Assembly: GCA_947452365.1 (NCBI GenBank)
Contig: CANGCO010000011.1
Coordinates: 1 to 48,045, forward strand
Length of the DNA stretch: 48,045 nt
Direction: 5' to 3'
Source: Caulobacteraceae bacterium
Lineage (GTDB): Bacteria > Pseudomonadota > Alphaproteobacteria > Caulobacterales > Caulobacteraceae
Within the stretch, counting starts at the first letter, position 1, and each line of letters starts with the position of its first letter. The position numbers and the translations under genes are program-made. The notes beneath the pieces were generated by a model. That model made no database searches and was not told where the DNA came from. It saw nothing but the letters and a program-made list of their open reading frames with translations. Below are positions 660 to 33,930 of the stretch, piece by piece.

Positions 660-1889
660 CTATTCGCGGCGAAGGGCCTCGATCGGATCAAGCTGGGCTG
701 CGCGCCAGGACGGATAGGCGCCAAATACGAGGCCAACCAGCACCGAAAACCCGAGGGCCAAGGGCGCGGCCCAGGAGGCAATGGCAATCGGCCAGCCAGC
801 CAGCTTGGCTAGTATGACTGTGCCGATTACGCCAATCAAAAGGCCGATAACCCCGCCGGCCAGCGATAGGGCGACCGATTCCAAGGCAAATTGGGCCAAT
901 ATGTCGGCGCGCTTGGCCCCCACCGCCATGCGCAGGCCAATCTCGCGAGTGCGCTCGGTCACAGCCACCAGCATGATGTTCATAATCCCAACGCCGCCGA
1001 CCACGAGGGATACGGCCGCGACCGCTGCCAGCAATATGGTAAAGGTCTGGGTGGCCGCTTCGGATGCCTTGAGAATAGAGGCCATGTTCTGGGCTTGAAA
1101 ATCATCGTCCTGGCCTTCGCGGATGCGGTGGCGTTCGCGTAACAGATTTGTGGCGTCTTCTTGGACCCGGTCCAGATCCTTTTCGCTGGCGGTTTTCAGA
1201 TAGATCGTCTGGACCGCGTCGCCCTTGACCCTGCGACCGACGACCCGCGAGCGCACCGCGCCTAGGGGGCCAAGCACAATATCGTCCTGGTCCTGGCCAA
1301 AGCCGCTTTGCCCCTTGGGGGTCAGGACGCCAACGACCTGAAAGGGTGAGCCGCCGACCCGGATGCGCTTGCCAAGGGGGTCGGCCTCACCAAACAATTC
1401 GCGCGCCACAGTCGTGCCGATTACGGCAACGGTTCGCCCCTGCCTGGCCTCGCGATCATCAAACATGCGTCCCTGGCCAATGCTTAGGTCTCTGGCGATC
1501 AGATAGTCGGGGGTTACCCCCTCAATGCGGCTATTCCAATTGGTGCCTTCGGCGGCGAGTTGGGCCTGGCCGCGCACACTGGGGGCCACAGCCACTACGC
1601 CATCAAGCTGTTTGGCGAGGGCTTCGGCATCGGCTCCTGTGATGGAGATATCGGTTCCCGCCGCCTGGGCGACAAAGCCAGAGCGCGAGGCGGAGGGCGA
1701 TATAATGATCAGATTAGAGCCTAGCCCCGAAATTGCCCCCATCACGCGTTGCTGAGCGCCGAGCCCGATCGAGGTCATGATCACAACGGCGGCGACGCCA
1801 ATCACGACGCCAAGCGAGGTGAGGGCGCTGCGCATGGGATGGGCAATAATTGCGCCGGCTGCCGACCGCACCAGATCCATACGTTTCAT
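660..1889 (-). CDS. MacB-like ABC transporter permease (FtsX/MacB family)
   Basis: This 409-residue inner-membrane protein has the MacB periplasmic core followed by an FtsX domain. A first membrane helix lies near residues 20-45, with the MacB-type LGVVIGVAAVV motif. A large periplasmic region follows (about 50-270), then three C-terminal helices with the typical GGVGIMNIMLV and ERTREIGLRMAVGA sequences. Family members work as dimers with a cytoplasmic ATPase and a periplasmic adaptor to move peptides, lipids, toxins or antibiotics from the periplasm through an outer-membrane channel. Here the ATPase is a separate gene that overlaps this one by 4 bp. It is the last gene of a three-gene operon. 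No TolC-type channel is seen in the window, and the substrate cannot be inferred. Confidence 0.9.
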   Translation of the reverse strand: MKRMDLVRSAAGAIIAHPMRSALTSLGVVIGVAAVVIMTSIGLGAQQRVMGAISGLGSNLIIISPSASRSGFVAQAAGTDISITGADAEALAKQLDGVVAVAPSVRGQAQLAAEGTNWNSRIEGVTPDYLIARDLSIGQGRMFDDREARQGRTVAVIGTTVARELFGEADPLGKRIRVGGSPFQVVGVLTPKGQSGFGQDQDDIVLGPLGAVRSRVVGRRVKGDAVQTIYLKTASEKDLDRVQEDATNLLRERHRIREGQDDDFQAQNMASILKASEAATQTFTILLAAVAAVSLVVGGVGIMNIMLVAVTERTREIGLRMAVGAKRADILAQFALESVALSLAGGVIGLLIGVIGTVILAKLAGWPIAIASWAAPLALGFSVLVGLVFGAYPSWRAAQLDPIEALRRE

Positions 1890-2566
1890 GGGCGCAGGAC
1901 CTTGTCCAAAACAATACGGCCATCCTCAAACCCGATCTGACGCTTGGCTCTGGCCGCGACACTGGCATCATGGGTCACCACAATCACGGTCAGACCTTCG
2001 CGATTAAGGGTCTCAAACAGGGCCAGAACATCCTTGCCTGTCGCACTGTCCAGCGCCCCTGTGGGTTCGTCGGCTAGCAGCAGGTCGGGGCTATTGGCCA
2101 AGGCCCTGGCTATGGCCACTCTTTGCTGTTGGCCGCCCGAGAGCTGGGTGGGGCGATGATGGATGCGTTCGCTTAAGCCTACCTTGCCCAACATCTGGAT
2201 GGCCCGGTCCTCGCGGTCCTTGGGCGAAACCCCAGCATAAATCATTGGCAGCTCGACGTTTTGCAGAGCGGTTTGGCGGGCCAGAAGCTGAAAGGACTGA
2301 AAGACAAAGCCAATGCGCTGATTGCGAAAATGCGCCAATTGGTCATCATCAAGGCCGCTGACATCCTCGCCTTCAAAGGTATAGGTACCGCGGGTGGGGC
2401 GATCTAAACCACCGAGCACATTCATCAAGGTCGATTTGCCAGAGCCCGATGGGCCGGTGACCGAAAGATAGGCGCCGCGATCAAAGCTTAAACTGACCCC
2501 GTCCAGAGCGGCGAGCGGCTCGCCGCCCATGGTATAAATTTTAAATAGGTCCTGTACCGCAATCAT
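1886..2566 (-). CDS. MacB/LolD-type ABC transporter ATP-binding protein
   Basis: This 226-residue ATPase powers the neighbouring permease. With the chosen start the Walker A motif (GPSGSGKS) is at residues 38-45, the Q loop near 90, the signature LSGGQ at 142-146, Walker B (LLLADEP) at 162-168 and the switch histidine near 199. The order and spacing are those of the MacB/LolD (MJ0796-like) family. The reading frame is open further upstream, to 2650, but those codons overlap the adaptor gene and encode a non-family sequence. The ATG at 2566 gives the usual family start. It begins 10 bp after the adaptor stop and overlaps the permease start by 4 bp, as expected for one transcript. Confidence 0.9.
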
Positions 2567-6275: not shown

Positions 6276-7883
6276 TTAGAGATCAGACTTGTCACCCATG
6301 GTGTGAGTATGGCCTGGAATGTCCAGCGCACCCGGGCCGACATCCAGAACGTCCAGGCCCTTGGATAGGCGCGAATGCTTATAGCCATAGACGATATAGA
6401 TTAACGCCCCGACCGCTGCATAGCTGACCAGAATAATCGCTGGAATGGGGTCACCGGTCATGGCCTTAATAATGATATCGGCGACCAAGGGCGCGGCCAT
6501 GACTAGGCACATCAGTATGCCAAGCACTGGAACCGTACCCAGCCAGATGCCATTAATCCGAATGCCGCCAAGCGGCACAGCAAATGGCCGCTCAAGATCT
6601 GGGCGGGTATTGCGCAGATAGATGACGCTGAGGCAGACAATGCCAAACGCCGCTGCTGTGCCCAGGCTCACCAGATCACCCAAAATAGTAATGGGCAGCA
6701 GGCCTGCGGCAATGGCGATCGCTGCGCCGAGCAAGAGTGTGCCGATCCAGGGCGTGCGGAACTTGGCGTGCAAGGTGGCAAACACCTTGGGCAGCAGGCC
6801 GTCGCGCGCCATGGCAAAGAATACGCGGGTCTGGCCATAGGTCAGGATCAGCATGACCGAGGACAGGCCAGCAATGGCACCGATCTTGATCAACTTGGCA
6901 AACCAAGGAAGGTTCATGGCATCCACAGCCACGGCGATGGGCTCAGGCACGCCCAGCTTTGTATAGGGCACAACCCCGGTCAGCACGGCGGCGACGGCCA
7001 TATAAATGATGGTGCAGATGACCAGCGAGCCAAGAATGCCGACAGGGATATCTTTTTGCGGGTTCTTAGCCTCGGCGGCTGCGGTCGAAACCGCTTCAAA
7101 GCCCACATAGGCAAAAAAGATCACGGAGGCGGCGCGGAACACACCGCTGACGCCATAGCCGAACATATGGCCATTATTGGGCGGGATGAAGGGGTGCCAG
7201 TTTTCGGTGTGGATGTAAAACACGCCAAAACCGATAAACAGCAACAGAATGCCAACCTTGATCATCACGATCACATTATTGACATTGGCCGATTCAGACA
7301 CGCCCAGCACCAACAGGCCGGTGACGACCAAGATGCCGAGCGCGCCAAGCAGGTTAAAGCTGCCCGTGGTGACAAAGGCCAAGGCCCCGTCTGGCCCGGC
7401 AACCGACTGGATAAAGGAGCTGGTATATTGCGGCGGTATAACCAGCCCCAAATCTTTCAAAAGACTGGTCGCATAACCGGTCCAGCCCGCTGCAACGGTT
7501 GCGGCCGCAACCCCGTATTCGAGTACCAATAACCAGCCCATGGTCCAGGCAAACACCTCGCCTAGCGTCGTATAGGCATAGGTATAGGCCGATCCGGCCA
7601 CCGGCATGGTCGAGGCCAGCTCGGCATAGCAAAGCCCGGCAAAGGCGCAGGCCAGGCCGGCAATGATGAAGGACAGCATGACGGCGGGTCCGGCAAAATT
7701 GGCCGCCGCATTGCCGGTCATGACATAAATGCCCGCCCCGATGATGCAGCCAATGCCTAGAAACACCAGATTGACGGGTCCAAGGGTACGTTTCAGCGCA
7801 TGGCCCTGAGCCTCGCGCTGGATCTGATCAATCGATTTCTTGATCAGAAGTCGGTGTCCGCTCGGTGCGGCGTCTAAAGCCAT
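6276..7883 (-). CDS. Amino-acid permease, APC superfamily (CAT-like)
   Basis: A 535-residue inner-membrane transporter with about 12-14 hydrophobic segments. The first conserved unit, GIGCIIGAGIYVMTG near residues 42-56, is the substrate-binding unwound helix of APC transporters. It is followed by CYAELASTMPVAGSAYTY, typical of the cationic amino-acid transporter (CAT/YfnA) branch. It probably imports amino acids with protons; the exact substrate is not deducible. The frame is open up to 7925, but the ATG at 7883 has an AGGGGG ribosome site and matches the usual N-terminus. A small hairpin (7905-7922) lies in its leader. A terminator follows its stop. Confidence 0.88.
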   Translation of the reverse strand: MALDAAPSGHRLLIKKSIDQIQREAQGHALKRTLGPVNLVFLGIGCIIGAGIYVMTGNAAANFAGPAVMLSFIIAGLACAFAGLCYAELASTMPVAGSAYTYAYTTLGEVFAWTMGWLLVLEYGVAAATVAAGWTGYATSLLKDLGLVIPPQYTSSFIQSVAGPDGALAFVTTGSFNLLGALGILVVTGLLVLGVSESANVNNVIVMIKVGILLLFIGFGVFYIHTENWHPFIPPNNGHMFGYGVSGVFRAASVIFFAYVGFEAVSTAAAEAKNPQKDIPVGILGSLVICTIIYMAVAAVLTGVVPYTKLGVPEPIAVAVDAMNLPWFAKLIKIGAIAGLSSVMLILTYGQTRVFFAMARDGLLPKVFATLHAKFRTPWIGTLLLGAAIAIAAGLLPITILGDLVSLGTAAAFGIVCLSVIYLRNTRPDLERPFAVPLGGIRINGIWLGTVPVLGILMCLVMAAPLVADIIIKAMTGDPIPAIILVSYAAVGALIYIVYGYKHSRLSKGLDVLDVGPGALDIPGHTHTMGDKSDL

Positions 7884-32439: not shown

Positions 32440-33318
32440 TCAAAACGTCTTGCTAGTCGGTAGAACCGGGGCTTCGCGCAATAGAGTAATCGTAATGCGC
32501 CGATTGCTGGGCAGGGTTGGATCATCGGGGAATAGAGGTTCAGCGCTAGCCTTACCGGCGACCTGATAAATCCGCTCACGGCTAAGGCCTGATTGCTCGA
32601 GCAAGGCGCGCGCGGCATCGGCACGGCTAGAGGACAGGGCCCAGTCACTAGACGTCTTGACATTGCCGAGATCAACGCTGGTGTGCCCGGCAATACTGAC
32701 CCGATTAGGCAATTGGTTCAAAATCTTGGTCACGGCCTTTAGCAGGACCCTGGCGCGGGCATTGGGTTTGGCCGATCCACCTTCGAACATAGGCCGGCCT
32801 TCTTGGTCGACTAACTGGATTCTAAGGCCCTCTGGGGTCTTATCAATCAGGACCTGCTTGGACAGTTCAGAGAGTTCGGGCATGGATTGTATGGCCTGAC
32901 GCAGAGACTGCGCCGCAGAGTCCATGCTCTGATCGTCTTGTTGCTGTGTGTCGCTGCCGTGCCCTGACGCCCGACTTGTCGAGTTACCGACCTCTGTGCT
33001 GGGCGGGGCCTGTGGCACCAGCTGGTCCAGAGTATCCTTGGCACCACGACTGCGGGAGTTGTCGTCGCTGAGGGTCGTGCCGCCTAGAATGCCCCCGGCA
33101 CCGCTATTGGACTGGGACACGCTGGCGGGGGCAAAATAGCCCGCAATCCCGACCTTTTGTTCGGGCGAGGTTGTGTTGATGAGCCACATCAACAGAAAAA
33201 AAGCCATCATGGCGGTCACGAAGTCGGCATAGGCCACCTTCCAGGCGCCCCCGTGATGACCACCACCGATCACTTTCTTGACCTTTTTGATCATGATGGG
33301 TCTATCGCCGTCCGCCAT
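32440..33318 (-). CDS. motB: Flagellar motor stator protein MotB
   Basis: A 292-residue inner-membrane and periplasmic protein. The N-terminal membrane segment has the proton-carrying Asp32 (AYADFVTAMMAFFLLMW), after a basic cytoplasmic tail. A C-terminal OmpA-like domain (about 180-285, with AGHTSVD and SSSRADAARALL) anchors the stator to peptidoglycan. The Ser/Gly/Gln-rich linker (about 70-130) forms the plug region. The ATG at 33318 has a GAGG site; an ATG four codons upstream lacks one. motA is not adjacent. The separation of motA and motB loci is seen in Caulobacter-like bacteria. It is evidence that the organism is motile. Confidence 0.93.
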   Translation of the reverse strand: MADGDRPIMIKKVKKVIGGGHHGGAWKVAYADFVTAMMAFFLLMWLINTTSPEQKVGIAGYFAPASVSQSNSGAGGILGGTTLSDDNSRSRGAKDTLDQLVPQAPPSTEVGNSTSRASGHGSDTQQQDDQSMDSAAQSLRQAIQSMPELSELSKQVLIDKTPEGLRIQLVDQEGRPMFEGGSAKPNARARVLLKAVTKILNQLPNRVSIAGHTSVDLGNVKTSSDWALSSSRADAARALLEQSGLSRERIYQVAGKASAEPLFPDDPTLPSNRRITITLLREAPVLPTSKTF

Positions 33319-33341
33319 GCCTCGCCTCATTCGGGTTTGGT

Positions 33342-33363
33342 GCTATAAGGCTCAGCTATAAGG
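33342..33363. repeat. 9-bp direct repeat in motB/flavin-reductase divergent region
   Basis: GCTATAAGG occurs at 33342-33350 and again at 33355-33363, a spacing of 13 bases. It lies 24-45 bp upstream of the motB start on the opposite side of two palindromes (33390-33403 and 33422-33435). It could be a binding site for a dimeric or tandem regulator. It is short enough that chance is possible. Confidence 0.4.
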
Positions 33364-33389
33364 GCTGGATGTTAAGATGGGGTTTCGGT

Positions 33390-33403
33390 CCTATGCGCAT
33401 AGG
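33390..33403. promoter_or_regulatory. Perfect 14-bp palindrome, candidate operator
   Basis: CCTATGCGCATAGG is a perfect palindrome 33 bp before the flavin-reductase ATG and 72 bp before the motB start. It is flanked by GG and CC with one mismatch. A site of this size and symmetry would suit a dimeric helix-turn-helix repressor or activator. No obvious regulator gene is adjacent. Confidence 0.5.
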
Positions 33404-33421
33404 CCGATACGACCAGATAGG

Positions 33422-33435
33422 AATTAAGCTTAATT
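33422..33435. promoter_or_regulatory. Perfect 14-bp palindrome touching the flavin-reductase start
   Basis: AATTAAGCTTAATT is a perfect palindrome that ends one base before the ATG at 33436. It lies between a weak AGG ribosome site and the start codon, so it could hinder translation as RNA, or bind a repressor as DNA. It is AT-rich, unlike the surrounding sequence. Confidence 0.5.
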
Positions 33436-33930
33436 ATGGATGAAGCCAGCCAATACCGCCGGGCCCTCGGCGCTTATGCGACAGGCGTTGCCGTCGTGAC
33501 CGTTGCCCAGGACCCGCTTGATTCCGAGCAAGGGGCCTATGGGGTAACCATTAATTCGTTCACCTCGGTATCCTTAACGCCAAGGCTGATCTTGTGGTGC
33601 CTCGATGATGCCTCAGAGCGCGGGCGGCTATTTGCCAAGGCCGAGACGTTTGGCATTAATGTGCTGGCAGAAGGCGACCGCCATGTCTCCGACCGCTTTG
33701 CGCGCGGCGACGGCTATAGGCTCGAGGCCGATGAGGTTAAACCCGGTCCCCATGCCGGGGACGCGCCTGTGCTCAAGACCGCTGTGACGCGCCTGTCCTG
33801 CAAGGTACATGCGCGCCACCAGATGGGCGATCATCTGGTCATTGTCGGCGAGGTTACCGATTTTGATACAATGGAGGGGGATTCTCTTCTCTATTATCGC
33901 GGCAAATATAGCCGCGTTCACGCCGACTAA
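33436..33930 (+). CDS. Flavin reductase family protein
   Basis: A 164-residue flavin-binding split-barrel protein. The N-terminal YRRALGAYATGVAVVT and TINSFTSVSLTPRLILW segments match the flavin reductase domain that reduces FMN/FAD with NAD(P)H, usually for a partner two-component monooxygenase. No monooxygenase gene is nearby. The gene precedes a beta-hydroxyacid dehydrogenase by 11 bp, so both may be co-transcribed. Its start is directly preceded by a perfect 14-bp palindrome. Confidence 0.88.
   Translation: MDEASQYRRALGAYATGVAVVTVAQDPLDSEQGAYGVTINSFTSVSLTPRLILWCLDDASERGRLFAKAETFGINVLAEGDRHVSDRFARGDGYRLEADEVKPGPHAGDAPVLKTAVTRLSCKVHARHQMGDHLVIVGEVTDFDTMEGDSLLYYRGKYSRVHAD

Follow-up and report, generated by a model that had tools for sequence, protein, structure and literature searches.

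A conserved CtrA-type box upstream of motB, and two palindromes that are most likely chance, in the divergent motB/flavin-reductase region of a Caulobacteraceae bacterium

The 117-nt region between the divergent motB and flavin-reductase genes of this Caulobacteraceae bacterium (positions 33319-33435 of the window, i.e. of the whole stretch of 48,045 nucleotides analyzed) very probably has at its core a minus-strand motB promoter with a CtrA-type box, where CtrA would bind and activate motB from a predicted start, and both perfect palindromes found in the same region would then be chance sequence. In all likelihood this motB promoter is an ordinary one of the known CtrA type, with CtrA as its presumed ligand. 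An earlier note on this DNA had taken the palindromes as a sign of regulation, either of motB or of the flavin reductase or of the two together. What stands of this proposal is that the region controls motB, which is supported by a box of CtrA type and a -10 element, both conserved, within 33355-33386; the role given to the palindromes as regulatory elements finds no support, since they are not conserved.

The motB gene, encoding the flagellar stator protein, lies on the minus strand at 32440-33318 and the flavin reductase-like gene on the plus strand at 33436-33930, and the names that the earlier note gave them are borne out by Pfam (PF13677, MotB_plug, and PF00691, OmpA, for the former; PF01613, Flavin_Reduct, 121 bits, for the latter). 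The length of 117 nt assumes position 33318 as the MotB start; the reading frame also stays open up to another ATG, at 33330, which could serve as an alternative start. The best NCBIfam match of the flavin reductase is FerA, with 128 bits against a cut-off of 260, and its top scores, which belong to FerA and other monooxygenase-partner reductases, are all below the listed curated NCBIfam cut-offs. Of the 60 genomes searched for MotB, counting that of the window, 57 gave a match with E <= 0.001. The two genes are widely kept as a divergent pair: motB was present and divergent in 21 of 30 fetched flavin-reductase loci (window counted), and these 21 make up the intergenic comparison, the stretch fetched for the other nine being without motB. 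At one locus (L020) about 650 nt separate the divergent genes.

The CtrA-type box, GAAACCCCATCTTAAC (AAC-N6-TTAAC), occupies 33371-33386 on the minus strand. It is unchanged in the sister genome, which by itself is weak evidence given 8 changes per 117 nt, and it reads GCAACCCCATCTTAAC in four other members of the genus. In the genus alignment it forms part of a nearly unbroken plus-strand block, GTTAAGATGGGGTT[TG]CGG, or G[CA]AACCCCATCTTAAC when read towards motB. A related site, usually starting 54-75 nt before the motB ATG, is present in most of 80 motB loci plus the window; 128 loci were confirmed and the best 80 of them retained, which biases the set towards close relatives. Of 65 non-redundant loci, 62 carry the pattern [AC]AC-N6-TTAA[CG] upstream of motB, whereas 300 dinucleotide shuffles gave 0.41 on average and 3 at most, with the caveat that the widening to [AC]AC was chosen after inspection of the misses of the stricter AAC-N6-TTAA[CG], which itself occurs in 51 of the 65 (shuffle mean 0.30, maximum 4). 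The set of 65 excludes L145, one of 66 rows, whose contig stops within motB, so that the row does not represent genuine upstream sequence. On the opposite strand the box pattern occurs in none of the 65 loci, and the stricter AAC pattern is absent from all 63 control stretches, which were taken at fixed locus positions and lie nearly all within motB (outside it in a few truncated loci at the edge of a contig). The three loci missed by the widened pattern (L141, L146 and L148) carry the titles Rhizobiales or Devosia. The 58 rows aligned on the box comprise 40 in which the search found a divergent flavin reductase and 18 in which it found none; the box is retained in both groups and therefore belongs to motB.

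The consensus for CtrA is given as TTAA-N7-TTAA in the available text of PMC4287350 and PMC6180460. The half-site TTAA(C) is present in the window as CTTAAC, box columns 10-15 (33376-33371, minus strand), and the strict full TTAA-N7-TTAA is not, the left half being GAAA with only the AA kept. The 58 non-redundant rows were selected by AA-N7-TTAA, so six columns are conserved by construction and only the other columns count; the free box columns C4, C10 and C15 are conserved in 56, 49 and 51 of the 58 rows, respectively. The left half has TT in 0/58 rows and is never TTAAC, for which reason the element was filed in the half-site class with a residual imperfect left half and not as a strict full site. 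GC or GA precedes AAC in 38/58 rows, and the window has GAAAC. GA was seen in 16 of the 40 rows that have the flavin reductase as divergent neighbor and in 1 of the 18 in which none was found, and GC in 10/40 and 11/18, respectively; this difference between contexts may reflect ancestry or a link to the neighbor. The idea that the left-half G[CA] serves as a -35 element of the flavin reductase is not favored because GC is commoner without the divergent gene than with it, but it may play a part, since GA shows the reverse trend.

Downstream of the box, A27 (48/58 rows) and T31 (32/58) suggest a -10 element of the form YANNNT. In the window the predicted -10 of motB is TATAGC at 33355-33360 on the minus strand, with A27 as the second base of the hexamer and a departure at column 31, its last base, which is C and not T; the hexamer is the reverse complement of a piece of the second GCTATAAGG copy. 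The predicted transcription start, which is placed from spacing alone by counting about 38-40 nt from the box's 5' edge, falls at 33346-33348 (minus strand); column 39 has A in 31/58 rows and T in the window. In Caulobacter crescentus the full motif at the CtrA-activated P2 promoter of ctrA begins at -39, and both full and half-site activator CtrA motifs lie near -35 (PMC4287350). The proposed mechanism would start from a CtrA-type box at about -35 (33371-33386) followed by the weak TATAGC. Phosphorylated CtrA would bind the TTAAC half-site, aided by the degenerate left half GAAAC, and the bound protein would recruit RNA polymerase, so that motB transcription could keep pace with the cell cycle and with the assembly of the flagellum. 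Both palindromes, one upstream of the box and the other filling most of the gap between AGGA and ATG of the flavin reductase, would then be chance sequence. Neither sigma-70-type promoters nor intrinsic terminators were found in 33200-33600, and the interval 33300-33440 holds no CcrM sites (GANTC) and no SciP half-sites (GCGNC, both strands). RpoN and FliA promoters were discarded for misfit of spacing, as judged by eye against their consensus sequences.

CtrA itself is encoded in the genome (L163, positions 1462-2163, minus strand; NF045991, 411.6 bits, cut-off 350), and the best PDB match of the encoded protein is CtrA 4qpj, over the receiver domain. The full box TTAA-N7-TTAAC has 10 exact matches genome-wide, two of which overlap, compared with 8 for the backwards control, and is thus not enriched in number. 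Exact full boxes lie 22-195 nt before FlgB-like, eipA, flagellin and DUF1153 genes (with mechanically assigned starts); the contigs concerned are L149, L153, L154 and L155, for eipA, the FlgB-like gene, DUF1153 and flagellin, respectively. The NCBIfam scores of the FlgB-like gene are below the curated cut-offs. The DUF1153 family is the SciP family; among solved structures, the nearest to the protein found here bear the names SiR5 and "uncharacterized protein", and none of the papers searched joins SciP, DUF1153 and CtrA. In the Rhizobiales eipA is described as directly controlled by CtrA (PMC10787603). The family scan of the neighbors of the 10 full-box matches, which excludes L151, L156 and L158, recognized no known CtrA target at L152 and L157. 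The motB-like form MAAC-N5-CTTAAC is likewise not enriched (8 matches, one of them the motB box, vs. 16 in the control), and none of the genes following it at L168, L173 and L174, i.e. at three of the other seven sites, is flagellar. A comparable site precedes motA, where [AC]AC-N6-TTAAG lies 58-59 nt before the ATG in all seven genus genomes (L175-L181), with AAC in five of them and CAC in the window's genome and its sister. The motA upstream region shares AATTAAGCTT with the second palindrome, and this sequence has five genomic matches, two of which are the palindrome's own two strands. A link between the two places was rejected: in motA, AATTAAGC is a piece of the conserved CtrA-type box, whereas next to the start of the flavin reductase its conservation goes no further than the sister, so that it was treated as chance.

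The palindromes and the repeat are present as the earlier note described them: a perfect 14-bp palindrome, CCTATGCGCATAGG, at 33390-33403; another, AATTAAGCTTAATT, at 33422-33435, adjoining the start codon of the flavin reductase (ATG, 33436); and two direct copies of the 9-bp GCTATAAGG, at 33342-33350 and 33355-33363. The sister genome, in which the flavin reductase is 94% and MotB 90% identical, has an intergenic region of equal length with 8 substitutions in 117 nt, none of which falls in 33355-33386 and three of which fall in the palindromes. There the first palindrome reads CCTACGCGCACAGG, with two different pairs broken and uncompensated, and the second reads AATTAAGCTTGATT, with one uncompensated change. 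The first copy of the repeat is GCTATATGG in the sister and the second is unchanged; it is the second copy, and not the first, that overlaps the conserved -10 element. Four further members of the genus have in this region neither palindrome nor any GCTATAAGG (a sixth same-genus relative, G001, gave no match for either gene), and in the upstream regions examined other than the sister's no match to the palindromes with fewer than three mismatches was found. Among 66 non-redundant rows (L145 counted), only two, one of them the window, have a perfect palindrome of 12 bp or more within the 120 nt preceding motB. The earlier note had held that palindromic control would be refuted by lack of conservation in close relatives together with unchanged expression on removal of bound factors; the sequence half of this is what the five same-genus relatives show, none of which has the palindromes intact. 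Both palindromes are most likely chance sequence, as far as such comparisons can indicate.

The opposite reading, in which the palindromes are operators for a lineage-specific flavin-reductase regulator and were recently gained in this species, is very improbable. Its attraction is that both palindromes are perfect and lie 18 nt apart, and that two of them in one 117-nt stretch of such composition have a probability of about 0.0002 if the stretch is fixed beforehand. Set against this, the chance that any two of six randomly placed palindromes start within 32 nt of each other somewhere in the window is 0.02. The density that the earlier note called unusual is therefore mildly so as a clustering and not striking for a feature found by reading 48 kb. 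Single palindromes of such length are ordinary in the window, with 6 of at least 14 bp observed and 4.9 expected under a first-order Markov model (the longest perfect one, GGTTGCGGCCGCAACC, measures 16 bp and lies at 7497-7512). A predicted RNA hairpin of -7.1 kcal/mol in the 20 nt around the first palindrome, equalled by 8 of 200 shuffles, would also favor operators, and for the second palindrome no RNA fold is predicted; folding of the flavin-reductase leader is no better than in shuffles. The two palindromes are unlike each other in sequence, both are broken in the sister without compensation, and the search for further copies that the earlier note had recommended found none with 0 or 1 mismatch to either in the 2.59-Mb genome, a search that a regulator with one single genomic site would escape. 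With up to two mismatches the first palindrome has 12 genomic sites including itself (5 for its backwards control) and the second has 4 including itself (2 for the control).

That the conserved box is the site of another factor, or a plain sigma-factor -35 element, and not a CtrA site, is unlikely, even though the left half is consistently off TTAAC and the full motif is not enriched genome-wide. AA and TTAAC stand at CtrA spacing and at the published distance from the predicted start, CtrA is encoded, and CtrA boxes precede the FlgB-like and flagellin genes. Moreover, the available text of PMC6169604 reports that ChIP-seq in C. crescentus detected CtrA at the promoters of both motA and motB, with occupancy higher in a cckA mutant, and in Rhodobacter sphaeroides motB2 is among the best predicted CtrA hits (PMC6180460). 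A CtrA-type motB promoter is also compatible with the possibility, in itself rather unlikely and with odds that overlap those of the preferred explanation, that one box serves both genes, CtrA activating motB and repressing the flavin reductase by covering its promoter. In R. sphaeroides a single CtrA box is reported to serve two divergent promoters (PMC6180460), and in 32 of the 45 loci with a strict box and a divergent flavin reductase the box starts 16-28 nt before the flavin-reductase start (these loci were not dereplicated, and the starts were taken from the alignments). Such a distance leaves little room for a separate promoter there, and the flavin-reductase promoter of these 32 loci probably overlaps the box or the motB promoter. 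Against a shared box speak the distance in the window, where the box begins 49 nt from the flavin-reductase start, its retention where no flavin reductase was found, and the lack of any conserved promoter on the flavin-reductase side in the alignments. A search for a mirror-image promoter beyond the box yielded at most 0.21 bits in columns -25 to -1, and when the loci were aligned on the start of the flavin reductase little emerged apart from a Shine-Dalgarno-like signal. None of the papers searched joins CtrA, motB and flavin reductase.

In each of the six aligned genus members, the Shine-Dalgarno-like AGGA of the flavin reductase (33419-33422, plus strand, in the window) begins 17 nt ahead of the start. 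A purine signal stands 9-12 nt before the start in 41 non-redundant loci, so that the spacing is longer here. The first base of the second palindrome is the last of AGGA, and the rest of the palindrome makes up the spacer to the ATG.

One may speculate, with considerable doubt, that the CtrA site has been kept imperfect by selection, with GCAAC or GAAAC in place of TTAAC, in order to tune stator production, and that in the many relatives where it abuts the flavin-reductase start it would act as a two-way switch, by which the cell turns on motB and simultaneously shuts off the flavin reductase at one point of its cycle. As to the wider meaning of these observations, perfect palindromes can mislead a by-eye reading of a regulatory region, and the conserved element is what selection kept. 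If the CtrA-type motB promoter proposed here is correct, CtrA control of motB as reported in C. crescentus would extend to a Caulobacteraceae genus represented here by draft genomes and to nearly all sampled related motB loci, in which the site differs from the textbook one in a conserved manner.

The CtrA-activated promoters of C. crescentus, as described in the available part of PMC4287350, resemble the predicted motB promoter in having a TTAAC half-site with AA at full-site spacing, a start (here a predicted one) about 39 nt downstream of the box's 5' edge and a weak -10, and in both cases the target gene is flagellar and CtrA is encoded. They differ in that the left half is here GAAAC or GCAAC instead of TTAAC, a departure that is itself conserved, and in that the promoter described here is a prediction from sequence. 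The CtrA-occupied motB promoter of C. crescentus (PMC6169604) concerns the same gene in the same bacterial family; the Caulobacter loci read here are those titled Caulobacter sp. (L071, L074 and L080-L082). The fliL2p-fliF2p pair of R. sphaeroides, to judge from the available text of PMC6180460, is similar in combining a short divergent region with a single CtrA box; there, in contrast, both genes are flagellar and activated, whereas here the neighbor of motB is a flavin reductase.
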